A DNA stretch of 50,115 nt from the IMG/VR virus record IMGVR_UViG_3300034283_002057, positions 1 through 50,115 of that record; one strand, written 5' to 3'. The stretch's first letter is position 1. Every line of letters starts with the position of its first letter. Of the stretch, positions 2,856-44,839 are shown one piece after another. The translations under genes were made by a program, and so were the position numbers. The DNA comes from a virus. The notes beneath the pieces are model-generated. The model saw only the letters and a list, made by a program, of their open reading frames with translations, had not been told where the DNA came from and did no database searches.

Positions 2856-2904
2856 GTTACGAATTTATGTGTAGACTACCTTTGTCCCGGTTGAAGATCA
2901 GGAT

Positions 2905-20654: not shown

Positions 20655-22045
20655 TAAAATGTACCAAATGGATTTGATTCTGAAAAATCTATGATGCCGT
20701 CAGCCGCATTTTCAATTTCAATATTTTCACTATATTTATCATACTGATCCCAAGTATCATATGATTGTATAGAATAAGATGCACCAGACGTAGAACCAAC
20801 TAATAACTCTCCGGGATAAAACTCTTTTGTTCCAGCGTTATTTACAAAAGATACTTTAAGTATTTTTGTATCAAAATCCCAAGATTTAACCCTTCCTCTA
20901 GTAGCAGAAATTGATCCAACCACTTCTTCATTAAACATGTAAGTACCAATTCCAGAAAGAACAGGTGGTGGTGCAATTGTAATAGTAGGTGGATCAGTAT
21001 ATCCTGCCCCAGGATTTACAATTCTAATAGAATTAATTGTTTGTCCTGCACCAACCATTGCCATCGCTACTGCAGATTGTCCGATACCAACAGATCCTGC
21101 AATACTTACTATAGGTGAATTTACATATCCACTGCCAGAATTTGTAATAACAAATCTACTAATTCCACTTCTACTGGTTTCAATTGAACAAGTAGCAATT
21201 GCATTAGTTCCACCTCCACCAACTATAGAAATTGTTGGTGCTACAGTGTACCCTGCACCAGCATTTGTTAATATAATGGATTCGATGGAATAAACTCCTG
21301 CTCTAGAAGTTGTAATGGCAATAGCACTGGCATTTTGACCACCCACCGGTGCTGATGAAATTTGTACAATAGGAGTTGAGATATAATTATATCCATCATT
21401 ATTTAAAAATATTTGACGCACATATCCAGTATTAATTGTAGCAGTAGCAGTTGCTGCAGATCCTGTCCCAATTAACTGAAGTGTTGTAATATACCCCTCA
21501 TCTTTAATTTGAGTATCAATTTCTTCAATTGACGTATCAATAACTTCATCCTCATATTCAAATAACTCACATTTTAATTCATACATATAAAGTTTTCCTA
21601 ATTGGTAAAAATTCACTTCATGTTCAACAAATTTAACTTCAAATAATCTTTCACCCAATGGAAAATAAACCAAATCTCCTTCTCTTGGCCTAGATGATAG
21701 TTCAATTTCATTATCAACTGATGATTCTAAAAATGGAGAAATAAAATCTTCGAACCTTTCTTTCGAAATTACTAAACTAAGTTCATCCTTTAAACTTACT
21801 CCAAATTTTGAAAGAATGTCCCCCTGACCTGTATATCCATCATAATTGTTAATGTATGCTTCAATTGCATAATTATCATCAAACTTGGAAGATTGAATTT
21901 CTCTGATAATAGTCTGTTTCCTCACAAATTTTCGCGGAATATAAATTACATCCACTCCATATATTTTTAAGTGTTCGTTAATTAAATCTTGTACAAGTCT
22001 TTGTTCTCCAGGAGAACCTTGTAGAAAAAAAGGATTAAGTGCCAT
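20654..22045 (-). CDS. 14: gp14-like neck protein with a repeat insertion
   Basis: Neck protein that with gp13 seals the packaged head and receives the tail. It has 463 residues against 256 in T4. The conserved gp14 frame is split: the N-terminal part (MALNPFFLQGSPGEQRLVQD to LFEYEDEVID, about 1-170) and the C-terminal part (YDKYSENIEIENAADGIIDF, S-N-P-F-G-T-F at the end). Between them, residues about 195-365 form an insertion of four repeats centred on G-Y (DGYNYISTP, GAGYTVAP, GSGYVNSP, GAGYTDPP), spaced 41-45 residues. The same repeat occurs in gp7, gp8 and the 2450-residue protein. An additional small beta unit (368-430) with ATRGRVKSWD follows. Confidence 0.9.
   Translation of the reverse strand: MALNPFFLQGSPGEQRLVQDLINEHLKIYGVDVIYIPRKFVRKQTIIREIQSSKFDDNYAIEAYINNYDGYTGQGDILSKFGVSLKDELSLVISKERFEDFISPFLESSVDNEIELSSRPREGDLVYFPLGERLFEVKFVEHEVNFYQLGKLYMYELKCELFEYEDEVIDTSIEEIDTQIKDEGYITTLQLIGTGSAATATATINTGYVRQIFLNNDGYNYISTPIVQISSAPVGGQNASAIAITTSRAGVYSIESIILTNAGAGYTVAPTISIVGGGGTNAIATCSIETSRSGISRFVITNSGSGYVNSPIVSIAGSVGIGQSAVAMAMVGAGQTINSIRIVNPGAGYTDPPTITIAPPPVLSGIGTYMFNEEVVGSISATRGRVKSWDFDTKILKVSFVNNAGTKEFYPGELLVGSTSGASYSIQSYDTWDQYDKYSENIEIENAADGIIDFSESNPFGTF
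20966..21403 (-). repeat. four GY-type protein repeats inside gp14
   Basis: Codes for gp14 residues about 215-360. Each unit reads roughly hydrophobic-N-x-G-x-G-Y-x-x-x-P-x-I-x-I followed by a Gly/Ala/Thr-rich strand segment. The units diverge at DNA level, so they are an old protein repeat and not a recent tandem duplication. Confidence 0.75.
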
Positions 22046-22047
22046 TA

Positions 22048-23698: not shown

Positions 23699-23721
23699 TT
23701 ATTTTTTTAATCTCTACTTTC

Positions 23722-23729
23722 TATTTATA
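23722..23729 (-). promoter_or_regulatory. late promoter for the neck/packaging gene cluster
   Basis: Perfect TATAAATA on the minus strand in the 33-base gap between the 56-residue gene and the 114-residue gene; 24 bases from the ATG at 23698. No good promoter follows until 14652, so it may serve the whole run from here through gp17. Confidence 0.78.
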
Positions 23730-23731
23730 TT

Positions 23732-23902: not shown

Positions 23903-24092
23903 TTACAATCTCCCTCAATAAAGATTTAATTTCCTCAATATCCCTTTTCATTTCATCTAGTTCCTTTCTTTGAGTATTTCTATTGTTTAAACTATTGACA
24001 TATTGATTATATGATATATTGTCATGGTTGACAATTGCACCTGTTTCTTCATCCCTATATAAATTTGGATGTCCTTTGACTGGTATCATCAT
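23889..24092 (-). CDS. small coiled-coil protein downstream of the DUF4815 protein
   Basis: Up to 67 residues. The N-terminal part (VKGHPNLYRDEETGAIVNHD) resembles a short beta unit that I have seen in cyanophages and other marine phages; the C-terminal half (RKELDEMKRDIEEIKSLLREI) is a clear heptad coiled coil, suggesting oligomerisation. Two ATGs in tandem (24092 and 24089) overlap the TGA of the giant upstream gene as ATGATGA; either could be used. Possibly an assembly partner or small chaperone of a tail protein. Confidence 0.72.
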   Translation of the reverse strand: MMIPVKGHPNLYRDEETGAIVNHDNISYNQYVNSLNNRNTQRKELDEMKRDIEEIKSLLREIVNGSK

Positions 24093-27000
24093 CTGATTGC
24101 AATACTCCTTAAATCTTTAAATCTTGGTGGATGTGCTTGATTTGTAGATGACATTACAATCTTTATAATATATCCAGTAAACTCTCCAAGATTATTTGCA
24201 GAAAATTCATATTCTAAGAATTCATTTTCTCCACTGGAACGCACAAATACGTCAGGTAATCCACTATTCTTTGCAGGATCTACAACATCAAGATATCCAT
24301 CATTATTATTGTCTATAGTTAGATTATCATATCCTGGGAATAATTCAAATGATTGTGTAACCTCACTAGAATCTGGTCTAATCAAACTATATAATACTCT
24401 AAAATCTGAAGAAGAATGTCTATAAGCAGACAATATTACTTTCAGAGAAGTTGCAGACTGAGAAAGTCTAACTGTATTTGATACATAAACTGCAGAATGT
24501 GGATCTTCAGTAAAAGAATTAACTCTATTATCAATAGAATAATTGGATATTGGTGAATTAATTCTGTTACTATGGAAATCTGTAAAGGAATTATCTAAAA
24601 AGATTTGAGGAGAAACATACTTATTTGTTGTTTGCAAAGTAATTGCTGTAGTAAATGATTTACTTCTTGGTAATTCGGTTAAGTATTCGATTTCATTTAC
24701 TTTGGAACAAACTATTCTAGTAGATGATAATTGATTAAGAGAATTTAATTGAATATCTTCATAACCTAAGTCATTAAATGATGTTTCATTTCCAGAAACA
24801 CTTGTTCCGCTCACGGTTCTGATTTTTGCAGAAACTGAAGTTAAATCTGTTGGAGATATAATTCTGTAAAATGGTACAATGGAATCATATTGAATATTTT
24901 CAGTAGCAAATACACTATCTCCCCCATAATTTAACTCAGTTGTGAATGAAAGTTGTGGATATCCTGTAGAATCGGAACCTCTGCTTAGACCATTAGAAGT
25001 TCTGTCAATCTCAATATAATAACTATCAAGATCTATTCCAAAGTCACTAATATCATGAGTTGTATTGATTCTACTCAAAGAAACTCCATTAAATTCATAT
25101 TTGTAAATTGGAGTATTTGTATCATGAGGAACTGCAAGTGTAGAAAAATGTCCTCTTGATAGTGTTTCTAAAGTCCCAGATCCAATACTTTCGTATCTAA
25201 TAATTTCATTTTCTACGATTACATATCCCGGATTTGTTCCATTAACGTTTTTTCCTTCAAATGTATTAAAGTTTGCAGTGCTTGCAACCGAAATTGAAGT
25301 AGAAGATGCAGTTATAGATTGGGATAATGTAGTTGGTGAAACGTTTGGCAATACTCCAGAAATTGCAACTTTGTTGTTAGGTGCATACATTCCATGATTG
25401 AAATGATTTACTTTAACAAAATTTCCACCATAAAGAGATCCAGTAGGAGTAGAACTTCTAATAAAAGTAGAACCCATAGTAACTGCATTGTTGGAATTAT
25501 CATAGTATACTAAATTAGAAGTTCCATCTGTAGTAAATGATTCTCCCTGAACATTACTCAGATATAAAGTATCGATGCCGTTGTTATTTCCTGTAATCGT
25601 TATTCTTGCATTTCTTCCACTATTACTTGAAACGGAAGAGGTTACAATACCAACAACGTCTCCAACTGCGTAACCATTTCCGGGATTTACTACACTAATT
25701 GCAGATATTGAAGAAGTACCTGCAGAAACACTGGTAATATTTAAAGTAAGTCCAGATCCACTTCCAATAATATTGAATGTAGATACATTGGAGTCTGTTA
25801 CATAGTTAAATCCTCCAGTAGTAATTCCAACAGAAGAAACAGAACATCCGGTACCCACAATATATCCATAGTTATATGTTTTGACACTTTCACTTATTTT
25901 TCTTCCAGTTGTTAAGATACCAATAGTATTTGCATTTGTAGTTGTTGTTATACCTACACTTAATCTTCTAGGAAATGCTGTTAGTGGACTACTCTGCAGA
26001 TTTTTAACATATCCATTACTTTCATTCAATGTTGGATTATAGAAATATACAGTTGATGGTGTGTTAGTTATGAAGTTTGCACGATATAAAATAAACTTCA
26101 TATCCTTCGTTTGATCTGCAGTCCATATGGATCCATTTTGCGATTTAAATAGACTTCCTATAGCAAATTGTTGTCCATATTTCCCTGCATCTCCTTGTGG
26201 TAAATTTGCAGATCTAAATGTTTTTTGATTTTGTTCTGCAACAAATACTTCATACTCTACACTTTCTGGTGCGAGGAGAACAATTGCATACTCAGAATTA
26301 GGTGCAAGATAAATGGGATAATCAAATGTAACTCTTGTTGCTACGGAAGCATCATTTGAAATATTAATTTGATCTGGTCTAAGTGTGACCGAATTTCCAA
26401 TTACTGTTCTTGTTGGTGTTCCAAGTTCTAAAGTTCTAATTTGAACCGTCAAAGGATTATTTGCAGTATCTTTTCTATAAAAGAATAAATCAACTTCAGT
26501 TACATAAGCACCATTTTCATCATCATTTTGTGTTTGACTTCCTCCCACACTAAATGACTGTGCTAAGGGGTCATAATATTCTGTTGTGGTTACAACTTTT
26601 GTATTAGTAAGAGTTACAGTTGTAGTAGTTGTCCTTGTAGTAGTTACTGTGTCTGTATTGGTAATGGTCCTTTCATATAGTTCTAAAGTTCCATCAGATA
26701 CATAATTAGTCTCTGCTGATGATATACTTGCACTTCCAGAAGCTGGAATTTCGTTTGTTGAACTAGATGTAACCTTATATGTTTTATTTCCAGTATTAAT
26801 TCTTACATCAGGTGCTGGTACAGTGTTTGGATCTCTAATAAAGAAAGAACCGATCATATCACCAAAATTATCAGATATTAACCTTAAATCTTTTACATAC
26901 GCAATAGATCCACTTGTTTGTCCAACAAGTTTTGCACCTTTAACTAAATATCCAGAGTAAAGACCTTGAGATTCTTCGGAAAGTGAATAAGTGTCTACAT

Positions 27001-30000
27001 TTAAGACTTTTGATGATGTACTATAAGCATTTGGTAGGGATTCTGATTTAATATATGGATTTACATTAAATGTTGTTGTTGGGGAATTGTATGATCCAAA
27101 TTTATGATTTGGGGTTGCAACCCTAAAGGAAATAATTTTTTTATTTTGACTATCATATCCAACAACAGTTTCACCAACTGTAAATGCCGAAGATGCTCCA
27201 CTATTTTGTAAAGAAGTACTGTCTGCAATCTCAATAAGTTTTGGGATAAAGTCTACCGAACTATTACCATCTAAAAACTGATAATACCTCGTATATGGTT
27301 TTAAGTTAGAAATAGAAAACTCAGTGTTTCTAGATCTCATATATTCTTCTCGACTACTTTGCAATAAATTATTGACAGATGAAGTAGATCTAGTTGTATT
27401 TGAAACATCAGAAACACTTTGACTACTAGAGAGAGATTGGGTAGTATTTGAAGTTGTTTCAGTTTGTCCTCGTCTATCAAAATTAGCAACTCTTCTGTTG
27501 TTATTAACTGTTACATTTCTATTCTCAGTTTCTACTGCGCTCCTTTCAACTAAAACATAATCTGTAACAGATATTACTTTATCTGGTAATTGTATTGTTC
27601 TAACCCAATTATCTCTTTCTGGGAATAATTTTATTGATCCAATATATGTTACTACATGATATGGGTTTACATTTTCTACTTGAGGACTTCCATCAATTTC
27701 TGTTACTATTAGTTGTGATAACCATTTTTCGGAATCATATTTAAGAGTAACTGTTGAACCAGTTTTCTTTACATTAGAATCTAATAATTCATAATTTGTG
27801 GATAAATCTATGCTTTCATCAGTTGCGCTCTCTGCAGGTGCAAGGTAATTTTTTAAACTATTTCTCGAAATGATTGGTCTCATTTCTTGAGATTCTCTAT
27901 CAACCTCAATTGAAGAAAAGAGTTTATTTATCCTTTCAGTGTCTTTAAAATCATCCACAAAAAATCCAGTTTTAAATCTATTAAAACCCTGAGAATCTTG
28001 TACTTGTAGAGTTTGTGTACTTAGTTCTAAAAGTGATAATGAAGTTACTCGCTCAAGATTTTTGACTCTATTTTCAATTAGACCAATATCTCTCATAGTA
28101 TATCTTCTATTATCTACAAGAGACAATAGTGCATTTTTTACATTATACAAATATGGAGGTAGGGTAATTGTTGCCAACTCCATTAAGTCGTCTATTTTTG
28201 AAGGAGATTTTGGATTTTGAGAAGATAATCCCTCCAAGTAAACAAAGTTTCCATTTTTATTTAAATATATTTTATCAACTCTTCCCAAATAATAATCATA
28301 TCCAATAATAGTGTTTTCATTTGGAGTTAAATTGAGTTTAATTAATGAACTAAAATTTCTATTTGAAAAATCGAAAGGTGAAGAAGTATTTGTAGTGAAT
28401 ATGGGTACTTTTGGTCTAAAATCTAAAGTATCGGATGCTCTAACATTATTATTTCCAACCAAAGGAACATCAGAATTAAATTGTTCCTTATTGTAACTTG
28501 CTACAGTGTACACATCTCCGTTATCATTTGGAGGAACGCTATAATAGTCAAATACTATCAAAAGTTTCTTTGATGGTTCAGTTTCTCCCTTATTTCTAAT
28601 TAATTTTGAGTAATCATAATATTGCTCTTTTTGCCCTTTATCTAAAATAAATTTATTAGTAATATCATTATAATTTCCAAAAGTTATAAAATCTATTTCT
28701 CCAGTAATATTTGATTCTTTAAAAGTTACAATCTCATTACTATTAAATCTATTTGAATTTAGATAAACAATCTCGACACTGTTAGTGGACTTTGATACAA
28801 CTCTAGCAACACAACCACTTTCTGATCCTATAATATTTTCACCAACAATAGCATTTGTACCAACATTTAAAATAGAACTAAACGATAAACTATCTAAAGT
28901 TGGATTTGATGTGTTTAAAGATTCGTATACTGCCAATACCCTAGAAACATCTGGATAATTGAGAGAAATTTCTTCATCTTGAACTCTCAACCCATAATAT
29001 TGATTATAAACTAGACCATCATTAATAGAAGTACTAATCCCAGTTCCTGATTCGGGATACTTTGAATAGATTACATTTAAAGTATTACTACGATTATATT
29101 GTTTTTGCTTACTTTGTACCCCATTTTTAATAAAAGTTGCATTAATTGATGATGTTGTTTTTCCAGAAGTAAGTTTTGATAATGTTACTTGATTATTTGA
29201 TAAAGAAAACTGATCTGGTGTTAAAGATTGTGTAGTACCATCGGTATAATGAACTGAATAACGCTCTTCGTCAAAAGATGCAAATAATGCTGTTGATAAT
29301 CCAGAGGGTAGTGAGAAATCGGATACTGAAAGAACTATTGGACTACTTGAAGATTTAGCACTAGTAGATTGTGCGCTAAAAGTTAGAATAGAATCATTTA
29401 AATCTATTTGTGATATATTTGAATTAGGTAACTCGGCATATAAATATCCCTTATCTGAGTTTCTAATTTTTGGAACTCCAAGACTAAATGATATATTTGT
29501 TACGGATCCCACAGCACCATCACAAATTCCACTAACTGTGGCAATTCCTGAAACAGTTATTGAATTTCCAGTAGAACTTATACTATCAACTCTATTAAAA
29601 GTTTCATCTGATATGTTGGGGGATTGATATCTTATTATAGATCCAACCTTAATTGTATTAAAAAATTTCCCTGGAGAAGTTACTACTCCGCCATTGATGT
29701 TGATAGTGTCAGAAGCATTAAAACCAATTGGAAGTTGCTTGTCTAATACAGAGTCTCCAATAAAAGCAGTTGTAAATCCGGATGTTGATGTGGGTTGATA
29801 TACTTGCTTAATGTCCTCACTATTATATGCAGTAATATTGGCAATAGATCTGGGATATAATTCCAGACCATTAATAATAATTTGTTCTCCTATAATAAAA
29901 GTTCCCGATGTTTGTGTCAATTTAATTGTTGTTGTTCCATCTCCTGCTCCAGATGCGTATCCACTTGCCCCACTACTTTTACCTTTAACATAAGATGAGG

Positions 30001-31441: not shown

Positions 31442-31444
31442 TTC

Positions 31445-33046
31445 TTAGAATTCCAGGATAATTTTAATGTCTTCTTTTTGTCTAATGTTGCGAGAAACGA
31501 GAGGTCTATTATCAATATAAATTATATCTCCCGTCTTTTTATTTATCTCGGGATTTGCAAGTCCATTTGTAAATTCAATTCCTAAGTTTATAATCGCACC
31601 ATTAACTGTTGTAGTAATTCCACTTAAAGATGAAATTTTAGTTCCATTAAATCCACTATTTTCGCCAACAATAGTTCCTCCAGAATTGCTAAAATTAATA
31701 TTAGCATTTCCGTTCGTTGAAACTCCAACATAGTCAGTTTGATCGTGAGTTGATCCATAATACAAAGATCTATCTCTAAAGTATTTTAAGACTTTTGTAT
31801 CAGAATCATATGATGCAACATACCCAACTGCTATTCTGGTGCTAATGCCAACAGTAACGTTTTGAGTTATTTTTTCTCCAATTGTGGGGGGAATAGTATT
31901 TACTGAACTAAAATTAATTGCGTAAAGACCTGAGAATTGAGTGTCTGTAAAAGTCTCAATTCCTACAAATTTTGATGGATTTTTTAATATACCAATCTGA
32001 CAAAACTTGGTATTGATTGGAAAGTCTCTAGAAGAATCATCAAATCTACTATAAATCATCACCTTATCAGCACCCAGTTCTTTATATAAATCATATCCAT
32101 GACCTTTAGAGGGTGGAATTATTGGAATAAGTTTTGCTGGATTTGGAATATTTCCAGATGGTTGAATAGATCCCAAGTCAACTATCCCATAAGTATATCC
32201 TTTACCACCAGAAACTACTGTAGTGTTAATGATTTCTCCATTGGAATTTATCTCCACAGAAACTTCTCCACCAGTTCCATTTCCCAAAATAGGAACAGTA
32301 TGAGATCCCGTAGAATAATTTTTTCCAGGATTATCAATATAAACAGTTTTTATTTGATTATCATTTACTTCAGAGTTTCCATTTTCTCTTACCGAAACAA
32401 TTTGAGAATCAGTAGAAGTACTCCAATTATTGGGGAGAGTAATATATTCTGTAGAGTCAAACTTTACAATATCTCCGGGAGAAACGGTAAATAAGTATTT
32501 CCAAAAATATCCATCTCCACCAGTTCCTGCTACTGATGGTTCAAAAACAGTGTGTGTTGGTTCATATAAGGACTGATTTCCTGATGTATTAATTCCACTC
32601 GATCCATTTTTAGTGCAAATATAAACTTTATAGTCACTATTTAAAACATAATATTCGGAATCATATAATCTTGCTCTTTTTGCTACTGGACTAAGGTTGT
32701 TAATACTGTAGTCATGTCTATACATATCATATTTCTTGCCTCTTACCCAATCAACTCTTTTTACAACTCGTCTTATATTTGATGATGTAATTTTTTTTCC
32801 AAAAAGAAGAGTATCTTCATACTGAGTTAAATAATCTAAATTATCTATAGGATTTGGAACTACACCATTTGTTACTGGAGATCCCACAGGAGTTGTTCCA
32901 CCATCCCAATTTTCATTTCTGCCAAATCCAGTATATCTGTTTGGATTAGTTAAACCAACCCAAACATAATATGAATCATTATCTACTGATTCTATAAAAT
33001 TAGTAGCATTAAGAATTCTAAATTGATCTGTTACAAGTGCAGACAT
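31445..33046 (-). CDS. 8: gp8-like baseplate wedge protein
   Basis: Baseplate wedge subunit. It has 533 residues, longer than T4 gp8 (334). Correspondences with T4 gp8: the start ATxFRxxN-like QFRILNATNFIE, YTGFGRNENW, a G-Y-F-W-K-Y-L-F-T-V-S-P-G-D unit matching T4 G-Y-V-W-E-Y-L-F-E-I-P-P, T-E-Y-I-T-L-P matching N-E-Y-I-V-V-P, CQIGILKNP matching the I-S-I-I-T-N-P strand, and the last residues DIIYIDNRPLVSR...ILEF matching the T4 C-terminus. An insertion near 235-300 carries two GY repeats (NPGKNYSTG, GGKGYTYG). It has its own perfect late box. Confidence 0.9.
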   Translation of the reverse strand: MSALVTDQFRILNATNFIESVDNDSYYVWVGLTNPNRYTGFGRNENWDGGTTPVGSPVTNGVVPNPIDNLDYLTQYEDTLLFGKKITSSNIRRVVKRVDWVRGKKYDMYRHDYSINNLSPVAKRARLYDSEYYVLNSDYKVYICTKNGSSGINTSGNQSLYEPTHTVFEPSVAGTGGDGYFWKYLFTVSPGDIVKFDSTEYITLPNNWSTSTDSQIVSVRENGNSEVNDNQIKTVYIDNPGKNYSTGSHTVPILGNGTGGEVSVEINSNGEIINTTVVSGGKGYTYGIVDLGSIQPSGNIPNPAKLIPIIPPSKGHGYDLYKELGADKVMIYSRFDDSSRDFPINTKFCQIGILKNPSKFVGIETFTDTQFSGLYAINFSSVNTIPPTIGEKITQNVTVGISTRIAVGYVASYDSDTKVLKYFRDRSLYYGSTHDQTDYVGVSTNGNANINFSNSGGTIVGENSGFNGTKISSLSGITTTVNGAIINLGIEFTNGLANPEINKKTGDIIYIDNRPLVSRNIRQKEDIKIILEF

Positions 33047-33066
33047 TTATATTGCTGTTTTTTTTA

Positions 33067-33074
33067 TATTTATA
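33067..33074 (-). promoter_or_regulatory. late promoter for gp8 and the giant DUF4815 gene
   Basis: Perfect TATAAATA on the minus strand in the 33-base gap between the 3919-residue gene and gp8; 21 bases from the gp8 ATG. Confidence 0.75.
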
Positions 33075-33079
33075 TGAGA

Positions 33080-36000
33080 TTAGGTTACCACCTTATCTTT
33101 TTTTACTAAAGATCCATTATTTCTCAATCCAAATCCTCTTCTCTGTATAACTGGATAAGTTGAAAGGCCTGCATTATATCCTTCACTACTTATACCTATA
33201 CTGGATGTGTATCCAGTAACAGCAATTGATACTGGTGATGAAGATCTGCTAAATCCAGATAATCTACCCCAACTCATTCTTCCTACAGGATAGTTAAGAG
33301 TTCCAGTAGTTGCAATTCCAACAATAGAAGTATTTGATGCAATATTGCATGTTATAATCCCTGTCGTAGAATTAAACGCATGAACTTTATAGATATTATT
33401 TAAATATGATGTACTGATTGCAACAATATTGGAATTTGAAGAATCAATGGATGTTACCCCACTACCAACATTAGTATTTGAAATGTAAACAGGATATCCA
33501 ACTTGAAGATCTGGTGGTGATGGATTTAAAGTAAATTTGAGTGCTAAAGGTACTCCGATCCCTGTAGTTGTAGCAATTCCAACAATAGAAGCACTAGATC
33601 CTTTAATATCATTTACACCCGTTAAAATTTCATATTGTGTGGAAAAATCTGTAGTTGCTATTCCAACATTTGTATTAGTAAACACAATTGCATTAAAACC
33701 TATTGGAAGAGTACTTGGATATTCATTTTCATAATCAAATAATGAAATATCATCAACAAAGATTTGAGTGATAGAATCATTAAAGTCTCCAATAATGTTT
33801 GCAGTAGGATAAATTTGTGATTCAATAGAATCTCTAGACTTGGAAACAATATCTCCATTAATTAATAAGTCAACTTTTTGCTTAGTCCAATAGAGCGGTT
33901 TTTCATTAGTAGAATCAATTCCTTGAGAAACATATAGATTAGTTTCAACTTTATCGGATCCAGTAATATCATAAACTATTCTCTTATCTTGAGTAATGGT
34001 ATTGTTAATGTTACTATTATTGCTGAAGACCTGGACAGTATCTCCTACTTTAATGGTTTCTGCGATATCTTCTTGGATACTATCTATACCCCTGGTTCCT
34101 CTATAGAAGAATATTGCAATATTATCTTCAGGTTTTGGGGGAACTGTAAATATGAATGATGTACCACCATTAAACTGATAAGAACTTCCTGGTTCTTGCA
34201 AAATTCCATTTACAAAAATGAGGAGAACATTATTTAAATTTACTGACTGAGAATCAGGTAGATTTTCATCAACTTCGAAACTTAATAACTCAGATTTATA
34301 GAATAATGGGAATCTAGTTCTTACACTATCCTGATAATTTTTAATAGAGTCAATATAATCTAATTCACCAAACTGCCAAGCAGCAAAAGAGTCTGTAAAT
34401 GTATCAAGAACAGTTAATTCAAATTCACTAATTGGAGATGCTAATCTTGCATCTGTCACTAGTCCTACTGGTTTAAATACATCACCTCTTCTAAACCCAT
34501 ATCCATTTCTTGTAATTTTGAAGTCTGTTACTTCAAAATAAGTAGATCCTATTCCAGTAGTGGAACTTGCACCAACTTCAACATTTAGGAGTAGTCCAGT
34601 TCCAGTATCTGTAGTTGTACCCACACTTAAACGAGAGACACCAATCACTGGTAAATTTTCATAGGAAGGTGATGAAACATTGATTGTTGGATTTGAGTAA
34701 CCACTTCCTCCTCCAACAATATTGAAGGACAATGTTCCTCCAGCGCCTACAATAGCAGTAATAGTCGCCGCAGACCCACTGTGACCTGATTCTGTGACTG
34801 CTACAGATACATTTCCCCTATATCCAGATCCAATAATATCTTGAGTGCCTAACCCTACAGATACTATAGATCCTCCAGAAACAACCGCAGTAACTGAAGC
34901 ACCTACTAACGGAGCGTAACCTAAACCAGAAGTTGATCCCAATGAAACAATTATACCTCCGCGAGGTAATTGATTCATGTTAATATCATAATCAGAGGTA
35001 TACGGTCCAGTATCGGATCTAATGCCAGTAAATGTAATCGATGTTATTCCCGTTACTATATTCTCGGTGATAACATAATTATTTGAAGAATTATTTAATG
35101 TAGTTGGTGATTGGAAAATACTATTAATAAAAACTATTCCATTTCCACCACTAGTACCCAGTCCAACAGTGTTTATTCCTTGAGAAGTTAAAATAAAAGT
35201 TTGACCTATTCCCGTAAAATTCTCAGAAATATCATCATAAATTTGATTTGAAGTATAATCTTGCCTTAAGAACACTCTACCAGAAAATGTTGCTCTTTCT
35301 CTTGGGAGAGCATTTTCATCAGGACCAATTAAATCTAATTGGTTTCCTCTCGGCGGTTGAGTAAAATAAATTTTATTTCCAGAAATATTATAAGATCCCC
35401 TATAAACCCTAACAATAGAAGTGTCCGTATGTATACCTGCAGTAGATCCTACAAATCCCCTAGTAACCTCTACTAATGGAATATTTCCAGTAAAGGTAAT
35501 CGGTCCGACACTTGTAGTTCCTAAACCAACGTTTTTAACACCAACATACTCATCATCTATTTTTAATAAGTCGGTAGGATTAATAGAACTAATTCCACTT
35601 AAAGCAAAAATAGTAGATGCGACACTAATTTGACCTCCATTATTTGATAGTGTGTGAGTTACATAAGAATATGAGATTGGATACTGTGCAAGATTATTAA
35701 TTGTAATTAAAGACTTTTCATTCTTTTTAAACATTTCCAATTCGTGAGCATTTCCTAAACCCAATGATGTAAATGTTACACCAATTCCCTGCTCAGCATA
35801 TTCTTTCTTAGTAGCAATTTTAATTGTATCTTTTGTTTCTCTAATAGCATATACAACTTCTGGTAATAGTGTTGTAACTACTCCAACATAATTTTCTGTG
35901 GCACCAATTCCTATTGGGGAAGTTCCAATGCCAATAAATGTTGATTTTGGTCTATAGATTAATTTCTCTCCAGTATTGAAGAAATGATTGGTAATTGTGC

Positions 36001-39000
36001 ATATTCCAGTTGCAAAGTCCAATGAAGTTGATGGATCAAAAGTCTTCATGAATATTTCACTCTCTTCACAATTTGCTTCAAAATCTAACTTATTTCTAAA
36101 CTGAGAGTTTATTCCAAAATAATTTGCAATTTTTACTGATTGACTAACTGGAGAATAATCTAGATCTGGAGGTATATTTGTAACATCTAAATCAGTATAA
36201 AAACACTCATTGAATGAAATTATTTCTATGTCTCCAGAAATAGAAACATCTGGATAGAATCTAAGAGTAAAGTTGGTCGAATCAACACTTGCTCCAAAAG
36301 TTCCTATTCCACTATTACTTCCAATTGATAAAAATGGATACTGTAATGTAGATACATTTGTACCATCATAAACGGTCATTACTTGATGTAAAGCAGTGGT
36401 TTTTCCTAAACCAACTCTTATAACAGATTTTACTGAAGTGAATAATGTCTTATCTAAAATAATTACACTAGTAGAACCAGAAGAAACATTATTATAATTA
36501 GATTCAAAAACAACTGTTCTTTCATTAGTGTTTATTTGTCCAGGAAGTTTAAATCTATAAAAATCTCCACCCAACGCTGTTGTCCCAAATCCAACATTCT
36601 TGGATCTTACAATTATATTTTCAGACTCTGTATTTGTATAATTTAATGATAAGATTCCCCCAGATAAGGAAGCACCGAATGATCCTATAGCACGATAACT
36701 CTCGCCTTCTTCACCATCAAAATAATATTCGGCAATGTAAGTATCGGATCCATCATGGGTCAAATAAATCTCAACATAATTCATGATAGAACTATCATTA
36801 TTCAATATATGAATATTTGAATAAACTGATGAATATTTTGTGGAATCTAAATTAATAATGGATGTAGTTATCCCACTAGAAACAATTCTGTTTTGAGATA
36901 TTAAATCTACACAATTTAAACTTTGGGTAGATCCAATTGCAGACTTACTAGTAAATGTATCTTGCAATATTTTGATATCAAAAGAAGAATCAAAAGGATC
37001 TTCTGGTACAAATTTTAGGTAAAATGCGCCTCCTTCATCCACATACCCTTCAATATTTGCTAGGAATGAATCTGGATTGAAAATTGTAGATCCATAACCT
37101 GTTGTACCTGTAGAAAATTCTCCTTTATACAATGTAAATATATTTTCATTATTATTGATAGTTACTATTTCACTAAATTGAGTTTCATTATTCAATATAT
37201 TTTTTACTTGTAATAAAAATTTATTGTATCCATTTGAAGAAACTATTGGAAGAATATTGGAAACATTTTCTCTTTCATCATCACTACTGGAAAATTGTGA
37301 ACTAATATCATCAATTTTTAAAACTCTATTTGTTTTGCATAAAACATAGTCTGAAAGACGAATGTTATCAAACTTTATAAACTTAGATTTATTGTCAATA
37401 GTATCTACATCAACTACAAGATCAAAATTATTAATAGTATCTACTCTATTATCTTCAACAAACATATTAATCAGAGATAATGTAGATTCTGTAGTTCCTA
37501 TTCCAGATTGGACATTTTGCTCAATTTGAGTGTCTGCAAAGTTTTTAGTACCACTAGTATGGAGTAGATTATTTACAGGAGTTACTATTTCTTCCCATGT
37601 TTTACTACTCTTCACTGTATATGATAGATTTTGATAGTAATCATTATCTGGTGTTACCTGTGTGTTTTCACTTAGTTTTCCAGTATCATTTTCCCATCCA
37701 AAATTTTGAAGATTGAAGTACCCAATGCTGTATATTCCATTTGCACTCTTAATAACGTCAATCTTTGCCTCACTAAATGATTGTAGACCTCTTATCCTTT
37801 CATTTGGAGAAAGTTTATAATTTCCGGAGACTCTTACACTGTTTTCGTCACAATCAGTTACAACTAAATCTCTAGTTATAAAACCAAGTCCATTGTCAGA
37901 AGACAAAGTTTCTCCTATTGAAAATGGTAAAAACTTTTGAGTAACTTCAAATTCTGGATAACTGTTATAATTTGTTATAGATGCATATGACTCTTGAATA
38001 GTTTTTGCTATACCAGGATTGGTAGTTAGTCCAGAAACACTAAATTCTAATCTGTCTGGGTTTAATCCAAAGTAATTTATTACTGTAAAAAATCTATATC
38101 CATAATCTGAAGAATTAAATCCATCACCAGATGAATCCGCCTTTTCAATTCCCTCCACAAATATTCTGTCACCAACTGCAAAGGGAGCAGAAGTGAATCC
38201 TGCTATGGGAGTAGTTAAAATGCAAGTGACTATGCCGGATGAAGAAGATTGGACTCTTTGTATTGAAGTTGAATTTGAATTGTTGATTGCTCTAATTGTA
38301 ACTGGTTTAATTGGGAGACCTTTGGGTTCTACTTCAATTTTTACTTCACCGATTGAAGATCCAGTTAAACTTGCCTTTAAAAATCCAGATTCAATCAATT
38401 CACCAGTGTCAGAGTCTATTAATATTAAATCTGGCGCTGAAGTATAATTTTGTCCACCATTTAAGATAGTTATAGAATCAATACTATTTGAAGAAGAAAT
38501 ATAAACGGATTGTGGAATATTTGCAGTTGGTCTTAAAGTTTTATCTGAAGCATATTCAAATCCCTCATTTACGATTCTACTCTGCGTAATCTTACCAATA
38601 GTTTCAGATGATGGAATAATGAATGCACCTTCACCATTTGTAGAATTAGATCCTGCAAAACGAGGAAGTGATTTATAATCATATCCACCAGAAATAAGAT
38701 TTACCTTATTAATTCCTCCGGTTGCTGTAGTGGAACTAGTGGTGTATTCTAATACATTACAATCATTTTTCCGATAAGAAAGTCTTTCTGGAATATTCTT
38801 TAAAGAAACTGTAAAAGTAGTAGTTGCTATTCCAATTATATTATACTCTGCTTTATACTTACTATCTACAAATATTATTTCGGAGTAATTGGAAACATCA
38901 GAATCTGCAGTACTAATATATCCAGACTTTTCTAGATTATAATAGAGTTTTTCTGGAACAGAATCTGTGTAATTGATAGTTAATGTGGCATTTGTGGATA

Positions 39001-42000
39001 CACCTACAGTGCCAACTCCAGAAATTGAAAGTGATTCGGTAGTTGCAATTGAAACAAATTCCTTATTAAAATCTTGATCATAATAAATTTTGAAATTGTA
39101 ACCAGACAAGGAAGAATCTGATAAGTCAAATACAAGATTATTATTTTTAATTGATTCAATTTGAGGATTAACTAAACTAATATTTTGTGTTCCAATTCCT
39201 GTACTTAATATGTTGAGGAATGTTGGATTGTTTGAAATAGAATCTAAATATGTATCACATAATTTTATATTATTACTATCTACTTTATAAACATAGTAAT
39301 TTCCAGTAACAATACCTGCAGGTATAGAATCCGCTTCATATAAGATTTTATCTCCGGTTATAAGATTATGAGAATTTATTGTAATTTGATTAGTTATTGT
39401 ATTAATTCCAGAAGAACTAAAAGATGTTGGATTAATAACTAAACTATTTGTATAAGAATTAAATTTAACTCTAATAGCAGTAGAAGTTCCTATTCCTACA
39501 GATAAATCTGGATTCACATTTAATGTTACTTTATCACCAACTGATAAATTGTGAGATGTTGAAACAGAAACTACTGTGTTTATTTTATTAACATCTGCAG
39601 TAACTTGAGTAAAGTTTGATTCTATTGAGTATCTGTAATCATCATTTGCAGACGACCAACTGGTATTTCTAAAAAATAATCCATTAGTATTTGTCGTTAG
39701 TCCAACATTAGTTACTATACCAATATAATCTTTAGATTTGTTAATTGCATACAATGTTTCAGAATTACCACTTAAAATATTGAAAGAAGCACTCGTAGAA
39801 GTATTTGAAACTGCAATAGGATCGCCACCAGTTGGTTTTCTGAAGATTACTTGCTGACCAGTAACAAATGGGTGATTTGGTATAAAAATACTTTGAGTTG
39901 GAATAAAAGTATTATATGTTGTTATTCCAATATTATAGGTTACATTTATACCTATTCCAACTGTTGTACCAATTCCTACCGATTTTGTGGGGTTATAATA
40001 TACTATATTATTTACTTTTGACTCAAAATAATCTGAAGAATTATTTACGGTAAATGAATCTGGGAGGAAGTAAACTGGAGTTGTCTGAGTATGTATTCCA
40101 CCACTTACATTTCTACTTACTCTAACCACACCAAAATTATTGTAGATATTGAGAACTGAAAAAATTTCATTATCAATTTTAAAACTACTTCCAACTGCAA
40201 CATTTTGTGGTATTGATGTTAAATAAACATCAGTTACTATTCCTGTAGAAGCATACGCCGGAATTTGCTTATCTAGTATTGTGGAATAGGTTGTTAATCC
40301 AATTTGATATGCCCCATTAAGATTGGAAACTTGATCAGATAATCCAGAGATATTGATATTGTCTCTATTTAAAAATTCATGGTATGGTGCAATATAAACT
40401 CTAACAGTATTTCCATTCACCCAAGTAATAAGAGAATCATTATATGATTGAATAGTAGTATTAATATCATTTATTTGTTTACCTTTTATTTCTGATACTT
40501 TTGCAAATATTCCAATACCTTCAGTATCACTTTCGTCAAATGTTATTTGATCGTTTACTTTGTAATTAGACCCAGAATTTACAACCTCTAAAGCAGAAAC
40601 ACTACCGGAAGACACTGATTCAATCAGTGTCTTTTGTTCTATAATTTCATTTGATTCTACAATAAAATCATTGTCTGCATATTCCTCATTTACCTTGTAG
40701 GGGAACGTATTTCTAATTAGTGAAGAATTATTAAAATCGAATGATTGATCTAAAGATAAATTTTCTTCAATATATGGTGATCTGTATTCATTACCAATAA
40801 AATACGGAAACTTTCCAACAATATTTCCATTGTCATTAGTCTTAACTGTTGCAAAATATGCATAAATTCCCTCTGGAAAATCTTTAGTTTTTCCAAATCT
40901 TCCGTTATATTGATCCAAATCTCCACTATTTGTAAACTCATAATCTTCTACAAAATAACCAAAAGGAAAACTTGAAGTAGATGGTCGATTTTCAATATTT
41001 GCTTGAGAATAACCAGGTTCTAATTTTTTAACAAGTCTAGTATCATTGGGATCTGAATACCCATAAGATCCATAAATTGGATTTCCATCATATGCCCATC
41101 CAATAATATCGGAGTGAGTTGTAGTTGCTCCATTGTCTTTAATATTATTTTTTATATTTCCAGAATAACCAACAATAGCATATTCTAAATTATTGTCAGT
41201 TTCAACTAGTATTTCTGTCGCTGGATCTCTATAATTTCCACTTTGAATTCCATACTTATATGAGTTATTCAGAGTTAAAGACCTTACACTAGATTCAAAT
41301 ACTGCATTTTTGCCTGCAGAAATAGCAAAAACTACTGTATCTGTACTGGTATATCCTGCTCCTGGATTAACAACAACAACATCTACTATTTTATTATCGG
41401 AAACTATTGGTCTAAGATTTGCCCCAATACCACTACCAGATACAACTAAATCTGGTGTAGAATAGTAATCTTGCCCACCATATAATACTGATACATCAAC
41501 TATTCTACCATTTTCAATCAGTGGTTTAAATTGTGATTCTTTTCCATTCTTTACAACAACTTGAGGTCTCTGATGTGTATTTAAGATCAAAGATCCATAA
41601 TCAGATCCTTTTTCATAGGTATAAACTTGATCAATATTTCCTCTAATTATTGGAGTTGTAACAATAGATCCTCTAACTTGAGTACTTCCCAATCCAACAG
41701 ATGTATATTCAACCGATAGCACAATATCAGGATAATTAAAAATTTGATATCCAGATCCAGTCGTTGAAAACTTCACATAATTTTTTCTTTCGTAATTGGA
41801 AGTATCTGTCCCGTTAATTCCAGCATAACAAAGTCTAAACTTGTTAGAATCTAATTTTAATACTTGATACCTTGCTGAAGTTGATAGTCCAGATATAGCA
41901 GTAGTTTCATAACTGTAAGTTACAATCTCTCCATTTGAAAATCCATGATTTTCAAATTCTATCGTATGGTTATAAGTAGATATTCCAATTGGTTTTACTC

Positions 42001-44839
42001 TTAACTTTCTATTTGTGTACCCATTTCCACTATTGATTACTTTTATTTCGGATAATTTATTCTTTACCTCAGTTTTAAACTTTTGAATTCCAACATTTCC
42101 AATTGTGGTAAATCCAACAGTATTAATCCCCGCAGAATAATCCGATAAACTTTGGTAAATTTCAATAGTTCTATCATTAATTATTTTAGAATAATAAGTT
42201 GCACCATTTATAAGTGTTTTGGATTGATCTAAGTTTGATCCCCCAAAAGTTCCAATTCCTATTGGACTGAAGTTATTGCTATTATAAACAATAGGTTGAC
42301 CATTTATTAGATTATGATTTTTTGTGAATGCAATTCTTTCATTAACAAAATCTAGACCACCACCATTAGAAAGAGGTCTAGCATCAAATTCAATTTCTCT
42401 AACGTATTTTTCTATAATTGGTTGGAAACTTGCACCAGAACCATTACCTCCAGTAAGTGCTACAGAAACAATAACGTCTACATCAAAGTCTTGAGGATCT
42501 ACAAATATTTTTTCAACAGATCCTTTAACTACAGGTTGTATAAGAGCATTGCCAGTTGATAAACTTAATGATGGTGGATTTATAACATCATATCCACTTC
42601 CACCATTGAGTACATTGACATTATCTAAAGGACCATAGTAAACTTTATCTTGAGTTTTATAATTGTATATTTCAACACCATTTTTTAATAATCCAATAGG
42701 ACCTGGAACAGTTTCATATATTTTATTATCACCAATTGTCTGATTTAACTTAAATTTTCTAAGAAGTTTTTGTGGAGAAATTGTCTTAGATCTTTGAGAA
42801 TATAATACAAACCTATGAATTCCCGATACGATTCCATTTGAGAATTGTCCAAAAGTGACATAACCATTGGATCCAATAGTAGAGTTGCTCAGATATAACC
42901 TAATTCTTGTATTATTAATGTTCGAATCCGAATTAGTTAATACCTCAACATAGTAAGGTCCTTCTACTAAACCTTCTATGGTATTTGTATTTTGGGTATA
43001 ATAGTATACTTTGTCTCCAGTTATGAATGAAACAGGATTTTTTATTCCGAAAGAAATTTGACTATAAGATCCATTGTTTTCCTCTTCCAAACTAGTCGCA
43101 GTGTATTCAAAAACATTAGTTTGTATTGGATATGCTGGAATAGAATTGGAAGCAATATACAAACTGTCGGAATTTTCATCATAAAGATTTTGTACATCAG
43201 AAGTTATTTTATTATTTCCAAACTGAATTGGTACAATCGTAGATGATGCTTTTTTAACTTTTCTTCTAATATCGTAGTTTACATCAGAATTTAAGGAAGA
43301 AGTACTTACATTAATTGTTATTTCATTTCCAGAAATTGATATGACATTTACATTTTCAAAACCAGAAATTACAGTCTCACTATTTCGCAGTAAAACTTCA
43401 ATTGAATCTCCAACTGCCAAACTTGTGTTGTCTATAGAAGATTTTGTTGTAAGAGTACTAGAAACAAAAGAATCTATTTGATATCTAGAACTGGTATTAT
43501 AAATCCATGTATTTGCAAAAATTTTATCTATTTCCCCACCTTTGGATATAATTTTTCCAAGATTTTGTGGATATATCTCTTCTCCCTCTAAGAAATTGTA
43601 TGAATTTGAATTTATAACTATATTAGATAAAACTCCAGTAATTATAAACTCTACCTTTTTAGTTGTGTCTCCGTCTTCATATCCATAATAAGTATCATTA
43701 GATATAATTTTAGAAGTCTTGCTAATATTAATTGATTGATTAGAATCTATGTAACATCCTAAAAATTGATTAATAGTTTTTTCGGAATAAAATATTTCAT
43801 TCTCATTATAAAAAATACTTCCAGATTCTGCAAATCCTACTGTAGAATCTACAGTAATTATTGTACCAACATTATTTAAAGTAACATCTTCAACTACTTT
43901 AGTATTTGGTGTTATAGAAAAAGTGCCTGTAATATTTGGATAAGTGTCATCATATCCAATAAAAAAGTTTAGTTTGTAATATGTCTTTCCCTTTCTAGTG
44001 ATTGTTTCTACTTCAGAGACTGATGCAGTAGTATTTTCATCAGTAGATTTTTTAATTGTCTGACCAGATAACTTAGTAGGGTCACCAGAAATTACATCAA
44101 CTATGGCAACATTTCTTCTTATAAATTTGGCATCAGATGGTTTAATTAAAAATTGCTCCAAGTCTACTACAGTTGGAGTTTCGCCAAACAAAACATTAAA
44201 TAAAATTCTGAAGGATTCTGCAGTTCCTTTTGATTCGTAAAGAGTTCTTGCCTCTTTTATAAAATTTCCAACATTTAAATTTGAAGTAAAATCTAGACCT
44301 TCAAGACCTGGAGTTAAACTAAATTTAATTTTTTTATAAAATTCCTGTAAAAATAATGAACTAAGATTTTCAATAACCGTACCTGCAGAGTGAGATGCAG
44401 CCGAAGATTCGGTAAAAACTAATTCTTGATATTCCAAATCTTTGTGATAATTTGTAATACCACTAAAACCACGAACACACCCAGTGAATGTATTTGTTGT
44501 AATTCCAGTATATGTAATTATTTCATCATCAATTTTTAACAGTCCATAAGAAGAAGGAAATCCTTTAGTTGATGTGACAGTAACAATTCCAGAAGATGCG
44601 GAAATATGAGTTGTTAATCCTGTAGATCCTACAATAACTTCAGGAATAAGACTATCGAGGTTTATATATTGATCTAAATTCTCAGCAATATCTACCGGAC
44701 CACCTTGATACTCTTGAGAAATATAATACTGCTTTAAAAATTCAGATGCCTTTGGATTTTCATCTAAAACAAATTCTGGTAATTGACTATCAATTATTTG
44801 CTGTACTTTTACTCTTGACTCGAAACCATTTTGTACCAT
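33080..44839 (-). CDS. 7: giant gp7-like baseplate wedge protein (3919 residues)
   Basis: The largest gene in the window, 11.76 kb. Residues about 20-60 and 195-330 resemble the C-terminal part of T4 gp7: Y201-E-S-K-G-T-A-E-S-F-R-I-L-F-N-V-L-F against T4 Y-S-T-K-G-I-E-A-S-Y-K-F-L-F-K-V-L-Y, then L-S-G-Q-T-I and a K-T-Y-Y-K-L-N strand. T4 gp7 is 1032 residues. The remainder is a beta-rich chain with GY repeats (near 750, 940, 1120-1165, 1420, 2055, 2130, 3380), E-N-E-I-x-x-Y/R-G-x-x-G units, and a YHYH-type domain at about 1235-1390 (IIGWAYDGNPIYGSYGY, LDQYNGRF, FPEGIYAYFAT, FPYFIGNEYR). Residues about 3530-3660 resemble T4 gp10. It is 1 base from gp6, as gp7 is next to gp6 in T4. Confidence 0.88.
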   Translation of the reverse strand: MVQNGFESRVKVQQIIDSQLPEFVLDENPKASEFLKQYYISQEYQGGPVDIAENLDQYINLDSLIPEVIVGSTGLTTHISASSGIVTVTSTKGFPSSYGLLKIDDEIITYTGITTNTFTGCVRGFSGITNYHKDLEYQELVFTESSAASHSAGTVIENLSSLFLQEFYKKIKFSLTPGLEGLDFTSNLNVGNFIKEARTLYESKGTAESFRILFNVLFGETPTVVDLEQFLIKPSDAKFIRRNVAIVDVISGDPTKLSGQTIKKSTDENTTASVSEVETITRKGKTYYKLNFFIGYDDTYPNITGTFSITPNTKVVEDVTLNNVGTIITVDSTVGFAESGSIFYNENEIFYSEKTINQFLGCYIDSNQSINISKTSKIISNDTYYGYEDGDTTKKVEFIITGVLSNIVINSNSYNFLEGEEIYPQNLGKIISKGGEIDKIFANTWIYNTSSRYQIDSFVSSTLTTKSSIDNTSLAVGDSIEVLLRNSETVISGFENVNVISISGNEITINVSTSSLNSDVNYDIRRKVKKASSTIVPIQFGNNKITSDVQNLYDENSDSLYIASNSIPAYPIQTNVFEYTATSLEEENNGSYSQISFGIKNPVSFITGDKVYYYTQNTNTIEGLVEGPYYVEVLTNSDSNINNTRIRLYLSNSTIGSNGYVTFGQFSNGIVSGIHRFVLYSQRSKTISPQKLLRKFKLNQTIGDNKIYETVPGPIGLLKNGVEIYNYKTQDKVYYGPLDNVNVLNGGSGYDVINPPSLSLSTGNALIQPVVKGSVEKIFVDPQDFDVDVIVSVALTGGNGSGASFQPIIEKYVREIEFDARPLSNGGGLDFVNERIAFTKNHNLINGQPIVYNSNNFSPIGIGTFGGSNLDQSKTLINGATYYSKIINDRTIEIYQSLSDYSAGINTVGFTTIGNVGIQKFKTEVKNKLSEIKVINSGNGYTNRKLRVKPIGISTYNHTIEFENHGFSNGEIVTYSYETTAISGLSTSARYQVLKLDSNKFRLCYAGINGTDTSNYERKNYVKFSTTGSGYQIFNYPDIVLSVEYTSVGLGSTQVRGSIVTTPIIRGNIDQVYTYEKGSDYGSLILNTHQRPQVVVKNGKESQFKPLIENGRIVDVSVLYGGQDYYSTPDLVVSGSGIGANLRPIVSDNKIVDVVVVNPGAGYTSTDTVVFAISAGKNAVFESSVRSLTLNNSYKYGIQSGNYRDPATEILVETDNNLEYAIVGYSGNIKNNIKDNGATTTHSDIIGWAYDGNPIYGSYGYSDPNDTRLVKKLEPGYSQANIENRPSTSSFPFGYFVEDYEFTNSGDLDQYNGRFGKTKDFPEGIYAYFATVKTNDNGNIVGKFPYFIGNEYRSPYIEENLSLDQSFDFNNSSLIRNTFPYKVNEEYADNDFIVESNEIIEQKTLIESVSSGSVSALEVVNSGSNYKVNDQITFDESDTEGIGIFAKVSEIKGKQINDINTTIQSYNDSLITWVNGNTVRVYIAPYHEFLNRDNINISGLSDQVSNLNGAYQIGLTTYSTILDKQIPAYASTGIVTDVYLTSIPQNVAVGSSFKIDNEIFSVLNIYNNFGVVRVSRNVSGGIHTQTTPVYFLPDSFTVNNSSDYFESKVNNIVYYNPTKSVGIGTTVGIGINVTYNIGITTYNTFIPTQSIFIPNHPFVTGQQVIFRKPTGGDPIAVSNTSTSASFNILSGNSETLYAINKSKDYIGIVTNVGLTTNTNGLFFRNTSWSSANDDYRYSIESNFTQVTADVNKINTVVSVSTSHNLSVGDKVTLNVNPDLSVGIGTSTAIRVKFNSYTNSLVINPTSFSSSGINTITNQITINSHNLITGDKILYEADSIPAGIVTGNYYVYKVDSNNIKLCDTYLDSISNNPTFLNILSTGIGTQNISLVNPQIESIKNNNLVFDLSDSSLSGYNFKIYYDQDFNKEFVSIATTESLSISGVGTVGVSTNATLTINYTDSVPEKLYYNLEKSGYISTADSDVSNYSEIIFVDSKYKAEYNIIGIATTTFTVSLKNIPERLSYRKNDCNVLEYTTSSTTATGGINKVNLISGGYDYKSLPRFAGSNSTNGEGAFIIPSSETIGKITQSRIVNEGFEYASDKTLRPTANIPQSVYISSSNSIDSITILNGGQNYTSAPDLILIDSDTGELIESGFLKASLTGSSIGEVKIEVEPKGLPIKPVTIRAINNSNSTSIQRVQSSSSGIVTCILTTPIAGFTSAPFAVGDRIFVEGIEKADSSGDGFNSSDYGYRFFTVINYFGLNPDRLEFSVSGLTTNPGIAKTIQESYASITNYNSYPEFEVTQKFLPFSIGETLSSDNGLGFITRDLVVTDCDENSVRVSGNYKLSPNERIRGLQSFSEAKIDVIKSANGIYSIGYFNLQNFGWENDTGKLSENTQVTPDNDYYQNLSYTVKSSKTWEEIVTPVNNLLHTSGTKNFADTQIEQNVQSGIGTTESTLSLINMFVEDNRVDTINNFDLVVDVDTIDNKSKFIKFDNIRLSDYVLCKTNRVLKIDDISSQFSSSDDERENVSNILPIVSSNGYNKFLLQVKNILNNETQFSEIVTINNNENIFTLYKGEFSTGTTGYGSTIFNPDSFLANIEGYVDEGGAFYLKFVPEDPFDSSFDIKILQDTFTSKSAIGSTQSLNCVDLISQNRIVSSGITTSIINLDSTKYSSVYSNIHILNNDSSIMNYVEIYLTHDGSDTYIAEYYFDGEEGESYRAIGSFGASLSGGILSLNYTNTESENIIVRSKNVGFGTTALGGDFYRFKLPGQINTNERTVVFESNYNNVSSGSTSVIILDKTLFTSVKSVIRVGLGKTTALHQVMTVYDGTNVSTLQYPFLSIGSNSGIGTFGASVDSTNFTLRFYPDVSISGDIEIISFNECFYTDLDVTNIPPDLDYSPVSQSVKIANYFGINSQFRNKLDFEANCEESEIFMKTFDPSTSLDFATGICTITNHFFNTGEKLIYRPKSTFIGIGTSPIGIGATENYVGVVTTLLPEVVYAIRETKDTIKIATKKEYAEQGIGVTFTSLGLGNAHELEMFKKNEKSLITINNLAQYPISYSYVTHTLSNNGGQISVASTIFALSGISSINPTDLLKIDDEYVGVKNVGLGTTSVGPITFTGNIPLVEVTRGFVGSTAGIHTDTSIVRVYRGSYNISGNKIYFTQPPRGNQLDLIGPDENALPRERATFSGRVFLRQDYTSNQIYDDISENFTGIGQTFILTSQGINTVGLGTSGGNGIVFINSIFQSPTTLNNSSNNYVITENIVTGITSITFTGIRSDTGPYTSDYDINMNQLPRGGIIVSLGSTSGLGYAPLVGASVTAVVSGGSIVSVGLGTQDIIGSGYRGNVSVAVTESGHSGSAATITAIVGAGGTLSFNIVGGGSGYSNPTINVSSPSYENLPVIGVSRLSVGTTTDTGTGLLLNVEVGASSTTGIGSTYFEVTDFKITRNGYGFRRGDVFKPVGLVTDARLASPISEFELTVLDTFTDSFAAWQFGELDYIDSIKNYQDSVRTRFPLFYKSELLSFEVDENLPDSQSVNLNNVLLIFVNGILQEPGSSYQFNGGTSFIFTVPPKPEDNIAIFFYRGTRGIDSIQEDIAETIKVGDTVQVFSNNSNINNTITQDKRIVYDITGSDKVETNLYVSQGIDSTNEKPLYWTKQKVDLLINGDIVSKSRDSIESQIYPTANIIGDFNDSITQIFVDDISLFDYENEYPSTLPIGFNAIVFTNTNVGIATTDFSTQYEILTGVNDIKGSSASIVGIATTTGIGVPLALKFTLNPSPPDLQVGYPVYISNTNVGSGVTSIDSSNSNIVAISTSYLNNIYKVHAFNSTTGIITCNIASNTSIVGIATTGTLNYPVGRMSWGRLSGFSRSSSPVSIAVTGYTSSIGISSEGYNAGLSTYPVIQRRGFGLRNNGSLVKKDKVVT

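Follow-up and report, generated by a model that had tools for sequence, protein, structure and literature searches.

A paired GxGY-turn beta module, apparently mobile, in loops of neck, baseplate and other virion proteins of T4-like cyanophages

Phage Ig-like domains (Big_2, I-set and FN3; Fraser et al. 2006, 2007, as cited in PMC10276861) are small beta domains present on many tail proteins and exchanged horizontally, and in the excerpts of PMC10276861 and PMC9230969 they are thought to bind surface carbohydrate weakly. In lactococcal phages of the 936 type, carbohydrate-binding modules are located on the neck, the tail tube and Dit, and their binding to host cells has been demonstrated, according to PMC6669499. 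The GY module described here resembles the Ig-like domains in its patchy insertion in several virion proteins, and the 936-phage modules in that one kind of decoration occurs on several virion proteins, the neck included. It differs from the former in having a unit built around a GxGY turn, which is usually paired and in many cases sits inside a loop of some other domain, and in that no Ig profile matched the GY proteins scanned; nor did any Pfam CBM family match them, which sets the module apart from the latter. No description of it was found in the open-access literature, and the sheath survey PMC9230969, in its excerpted passages, speaks of Ig-like sandwiches without describing such a module.

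The window, by which we mean the whole stretch of DNA analysed, is a 50,115-base virus record with a T4-like structural operon on the minus strand, its nearest annotated relative being Synechococcus phage S-SRM01 (Kyanoviridae, Serangoonvirus). The gene order is that of P-SSM2, i.e., gp13, gp14, gp15, a DUF4815 protein, gp8 and a giant protein in the gp7 position. Four of these genes, all on the minus strand, are considered here: the 463-aa neck protein gp14 (20654..22045), identified by Pfam T4_neck-protein and by matches to T4 gp14 in the PDB; a 2450-aa DUF4815 / PHROG 358 protein (24089..31441), identified by Pfam and PHROG matches; the 533-aa baseplate wedge protein gp8 (31445..33046; Pfam Phage-Gp8, PHROG 438); and a 3919-aa giant (33080..44839), placed at gp7, the baseplate wedge initiator, by P-SSM2 gene order and a sequence match to P-SSM2 gp7. 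Residues 4-177 of gp14 constitute the T4 neck domain (98.9 bits against a cut-off of 25, E 4e-28), and this domain, together with the position beside gp13 and gp15, identifies it as a T4-type neck protein. In T4 the gp14 and gp8 genes and their order are as in the window, but T4 gp14 (256 aa) has neither a GY unit nor a counterpart of the C-terminal barrel in the alignment, and T4 gp8 is 334 aa long as against 533. The gp14 and gp15 genes of the window meet at 20654; in S-SRM01 a homing endonuclease gene (L002:22991-23518) separates their relatives. The ORF at 17954-19414 has a GY unit match in one fetched relative. Phage_tail_C_2 (PF25670) scored 11.5 bits (E 0.31) on window proteins, under its curated cut-off of 27.

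In the GY unit of about 40 residues, a long strand leads through the GxGY turn into a short strand, which is followed by one rich in Gly and Ala. We count four units in gp14, two in gp8, one or two in the DUF4815 protein and seven or eight sites in the giant. An HMM made from the four gp14 units alone separated from decoys in just one protein, the giant (6.9e-5 and 0.0011 at best, the best decoy having 0.0089); neither gp8 (best 0.72) nor the 2450-aa protein passed. After iteration on fetched relatives, with a decoy rate of about 1%, the HMM found four units in gp14 (residues 207-379), one in gp8 (230-271), one in the 2450-aa protein (1911-1958) and eight in the 3919-aa protein (739-3413), a broader HMM giving four, one, one and seven, respectively. 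Since such iteration is circular, a separate profile was built from 151 gp14 units only and aligned with hhalign to family alignments of the three other proteins. This gave 88.9% and 64.8% in gp8, which is why two units are assigned to it, 52.1% in the DUF4815 protein, and at least 50% at six of nine sites in the giant (best 91.7%, from a family alignment of four members), the weak sites of the giant scoring 9.8, 1.6 and 23.8%. In 152 control windows drawn from these three families, 50% was never reached, the highest value being 42.6%. In the DUF4815 protein a stretch upstream, residues 1860-1915, scored 71.4% and is a probable second unit by sequence match; when rerun, 1904-1962 scored 49.7% and the two units together 46.5%. 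Over the collected set, 1468 units were detected as against 38 in reversed sequences, and residues of about 190-358 of gp14 cross-matched PHROG baseplate, tail fibre and virion structural families. The original prediction had placed a shared motif in these four proteins, whose units should align in an HMM; they do align in a profile, and the motif lies at the positions it had given.

All sites lie on the minus strand. Those of gp14 (residues 207-249, 253-293, 294-336 and 336-368) occupy 20942..21427, as determined by HMM and AF2, and the gp8 pair (residues about 230-300) lies at 32147..32359. The one or two units of the DUF4815 protein (residues about 1862-1958; iterated HMM and hhalign) fall at 25568..25858. 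In the giant we find a pair at residues 1111-1187 (41279..41509; hhalign 89.9% and 87.8%), a unit at 1412-1453 (40481..40606; 68.4%), units at 2041-2146 (38402..38719; 80.2% and 87.7%, the middle one at 1.6% being without score), units at 3333-3413 (34601..34843; 23.8% and 91.7%) and a weak unit at about 736-800 (42440..42634; HMM 12.7 bits, hhalign 9.8%). The span of 20966-42600 originally proposed for the repeat does contain such sites, with the weak unit of the giant reaching slightly above 42600.

The AF2 model of gp14 (49 alignment rows) has a mean pLDDT of 76 and a pTM of 0.54, residues 201-360 lying at pLDDT 87-96 and 361-370 at 80; three strands are seen within units 1-3, and in unit 4 the third lies beyond residue 368. 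The gp8 model is poor overall (pLDDT 52), with residues 231-300 at 79-92. Strand order within the GY units is identical in the two models, which, for these two proteins, speaks against the different folds raised as a refutation with the original prediction. To the left of the gp14 array, residues of about 184-199 (21449..21496) form the first strand of the C-terminal barrel according to AF2 and VIA-align, spanned by VIA-align rows of 184-431 at Z about 6, the barrel profile giving it no score in the window; to the right, residues 365-431 (20753..20953; barrel profile and AF2) form the rest, and the profile of unit-free C-termini resumes there at position 26. The VIA-align matches suggest that the barrel folds from both sides of the GY array; they are to translation-factor barrels and may reflect only a common arrangement. 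Foldseek and VIA rows for the gp14 model, queried whole, were filled by the neck and barrel domains, and Foldseek returned nothing at E<=0.001 for the gp8 model. Against viral models gp14 gave 98 matches at E<=0.001, reported without aligned ranges; they include neck and structural proteins of cyanophages, as well as a P22 Gp10-like protein from an uncultured phage and one from Sylvanvirus. Judged from these models, the GY module may extend to giant viruses and to additional virion proteins. Besides GY, a small barrel module (FxxGExVxG-like) is common to gp14 (20753-21496) and gp8, where it covers residues 371-464 (31655..31936; VIA-align Z up to 5.8, low), and is weakly like aIF2-gamma domain III, the F1-ATPase barrel and the JBD30 baseplate.

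Cyanophage gp14 differs from that of T4 by this extra C-terminal barrel, with the motif FxxGExVxG...AxVKSWDxxTxxLxV. GY units were found neither in gp14 of T4 nor in that of Kuttervirus or Vibrio K489. A repeat-free gp14 was sought in sister phages and found, e.g., in S-RIM44, where the 292-aa protein has the barrel and no units; from this length, the window array adds about 170 residues, the figure of some 200 given originally holding for the comparison with T4. It had also been stated that the repeats split the neck protein; gp14 is indeed split, but it is the C-terminal barrel that is interrupted, the T4-like neck domain being intact. Among 208 distinct complete gp14 ORFs, the window included, 61 have no unit, two have one, 22 have two, three have three, 91 have four, 28 have five and one has six, the window protein being scored as five in this survey through a weak extra match at 186-206 which the broader HMM dropped.

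Sorting of insertion types by regular expression left many rows unclear, and a barrel profile built from 29 unit-free gp14 C-termini was used instead on the 147 gp14 rows with units (146 of 147 listed). In 99 of the 147, including the window, the right flank begins at profile position 24-26 and the left flank is unscorable. In 13 rows of the S-RIM8/S-MbCM7 kind, the left flank follows the profile to 40-53 before the units begin (30-42 bits among the rows listed). Given these positions, the arrays appear to lie in different loops, so that, as far as sequence profiles tell, GY arrays apparently occupy two loops of the gp14 barrel. The second site rests on the left flank, because right-flank matches of the S-RIM8/S-MbCM7 kind begin at 19-30 and overlap the left ones; a few rows of the window type have weak left matches (4-7 bits) reaching 39-44. 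On an N-domain tree of 111 rows, with A/B/C insertion labels assigned by hand and four rows labelled "other", the window-type group requires one change (support 57), and presence or absence of GY requires at least eight, six of them forced by supported branches.

Within gp14 the GY units change faster than their flanks. GY identity is below N-domain identity in all 13 listed pairs of 463-aa relatives (65% and 92%, respectively, for S-SRM01), and over 352 pairs median omega rises from 0.091 in the N-domain to 0.195 in the barrel and 0.254 in GY; a GY value under 1 is compatible with relaxed constraint no less than with adaptation. Synonymous difference in GY was significantly higher than in the flanks in seven and significantly lower in four of 361 pairs after Bonferroni correction, these 361 pairs being non-independent and the 11 that pass representing few distinct events, all on metagenomic contigs. 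For L043 against L042 it is 0.15 in the flanks and 0.56 in GY (p 4.5e-14), L046 behaving likewise against L042, and for L036 against L046 it is 0.53 and 0.26 (p 1.9e-6); L043 and L046 compared with L036 and L027 give 0.53 in the flank and 0.26-0.28 in GY. By these synonymous differences, gp14 of L043 and L046 looks like an array replacement, and some arrays look like cassettes that have been exchanged. A chimeric contig is less likely here, as the L043 and L046 records carry different metagenome numbers.

A two-unit GY query matched 437 of 50,697 phage records at E<=0.01, by name Synechococcus (321), Cyanophage (36), Prochlorococcus (22), Stenotrophomonas (17), Xanthomonas (11), Escherichia (9) and others, 379 of the 437 having cyanophage, Synechococcus or Prochlorococcus phage names. 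A scan of genome contigs confirmed at least 236 of at least 586 stretches, and the best 79 loci were kept, in each of which an HMM found a GY protein. Pfam scanning covered 32 of the 79 GY proteins from these loci. Of the Pseudomonas GY proteins of 240-290 aa, the five scanned are all lambda-like tail tubes, four more having the same layout; the other Pfam identities among the 32 are nine SusD, two CrtC-like lipocalins, one DUF2589 and one beta-lactamase-family protein with three units, several many-unit proteins matching no Pfam family. In eight of the nine SusD proteins the units are nested within the SusD_RagB match, and the SusD proteins of L380 and L408 have GY units in another position too, some 70 residues ahead of the usual one. 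GY units also occur in the sheaths of a Menderavirus, a Jilinvirus and FoX3. As seen in these sequences, then, the GY module extends past the cyanophage group.

Empty sites are found outside gp14 as well. The tail tube of phage D3, 77% identical to the Pseudomonas proteins, is continuous where those carry a GY pair, and the sheath of Vibrio phage MAR has no insert where the ECOO78 (Jilinvirus-type) and FoX3 sheaths carry one. The ep3 sheath is 97.5% identical to that of ECOO78, whose extra part is the GY pair, and itself matches the two-unit query. An AF2 survey table in PMC9230969 gives 475 and 2 for ep3 and 386 and 1 for MAR, entries that we read as length and domain type, and the same paper places additional sheath domains away from the contact with the tube. 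This fits a view of the sheath GY pair as an outer domain of its own.

Arrays of two or more units are even-numbered in 189 cases and odd-numbered in 35 (83 and 23 in cells, 106 and 12 in phages), a preference inflated by shared ancestry, since many of the fours in phages belong to one gp14 clade. There are also 87 single-unit arrays (32 in cells, 55 in phages), some of which are probably pairs with one unit missed. Nearly all inserts within known domains have two units, that of L403 having three. Judging by these counts, the module would usually be a two-unit pair of about 80 residues.

Searches of Pfam, NCBIfam and PDB sequences revealed no family for the GY unit; NCBIfam gave no match in the window proteins and none assignable to the unit in ten cellular carriers. 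Neither Big_2, I-set nor FN3 matched the window proteins at E<=1, and Pfam CBM families did not match them; none of these was found in the 32 of 79 cellular carriers or the three sheaths scanned. All that a PDB search with 32 units recovered were P-loop proteins, none better than E 0.04, which we take as chance matches on a Gly-rich stretch.

The reading that we favour, to which we assign a probability of roughly 0.6, is that GY is a mobile, as yet unnamed beta domain that ornaments virions much as the phage Ig-like domains do, and that it would face outward and mediate weak adhesion. The module would enter loops of unrelated proteins in frame, with the host fold preserved, and would spread by recombination; in the window phage it would decorate the neck (gp14), the baseplate (gp8 and the gp7 position) and the large DUF4815 protein. 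On the virion it may point outward and make weak contacts with cell-surface or environmental polysaccharide, by analogy with the Ig-like domains and the 936-phage modules. Against this, the conserved residues look structural and no binding site was found. The proposal of a mobile beta module in loops of separate proteins, part of the original prediction, is borne out by gp14 counts of 0-6, two apparent sites, empty sites, cassette-like exchange and nesting in unrelated folds; to it we now add that the gp14 array is placed in a barrel loop, that a second site is apparently used as well, that arrays look exchanged, that units tend to come in pairs and that the host proteins are widely varied. 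At the level of sequence it is established that the units share descent, that sites occur both empty and filled, and that in gp14 the copy number changes and the units diverge faster; the use of two different sites in gp14 is well supported. That the same units are instead convergent low-complexity Gly/Ala beta repeats forming no single family might be argued from their being short and Gly-rich, with some weak sites, but the absence of control matches (0 of 152), decoys near 1%, the 1468 units against 38 in reversed sequences and the retained register of G, Y and P make this disfavoured reading highly improbable.

Two further readings accept a single family but give it another role or none. 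The module could be a structural spacer or cement, stiffening or locking neighbouring subunits without binding to the host: the conserved residues, i.e., the Gly, Tyr and Pro of the turn, look structural, the count is mostly four in the clade of the window, and tail stabilisation is named as an option for extra sheath domains in the excerpt of PMC9230969. Its absence from S-RIM44-type cyanophage gp14 and from the D3 tail tube, however, implies that it is not generally needed for assembly, and its faster change than the rest of gp14 also speaks against this role, which we consider unlikely. Neutral hitchhiking, in which a foldable insert is tolerated by loops and kept by drift and recombination without a regular function, would suit its presence in very different proteins and its sporadic occurrence in cells, where at E<=1e-5, and counting the centre genome in each case, three of 79 Pseudomonas genus genomes and four of 80 Pedobacter phylum genomes have it; against this stand the concentration of phage matches under cyanophage-type names, the presence in four window proteins at once and an omega well below 1, and we regard it as distinctly improbable. 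In its widest form the mobile-ornament reading would make the GY pair an uncatalogued, non-Ig plug-in loop insert of bacteria, archaea and phages, which T4-like cyanophages have multiplied on several tail proteins and whose gp14 arrays they swap between lineages as cassettes, thereby tuning weak contacts of the virion with hosts or particles; we put this forward only tentatively, as somewhat doubtful in its entirety.

A shared building block of this kind is relevant to the tails of marine and freshwater cyanophages, many large proteins of which are annotated only as hypothetical or structural, and a Pfam-style GY model would also help in annotating bacterial surface proteins. Because filled and empty forms of one protein exist in nature (tail tube, sheath and gp14), the function of a virion ornament becomes directly testable. 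The units also offer a reason for a wrong orthologue label: the tail fibre of S-MbCM7 (L164:7119-16253) is annotated as "gp14; similar to T4-GC_117", and shared GY units have perhaps misled orthologue clustering. The giant in the gp7 position also has a YHYH domain (PF14240, E 7e-24) at residues 1233-1335 (about 40835-41143). A protein with both YHYH and GY, and with a weak baseplate-wedge match, is encoded on L335, a contig filed as a Euryarchaeota MAG, which is perhaps a viral contig.
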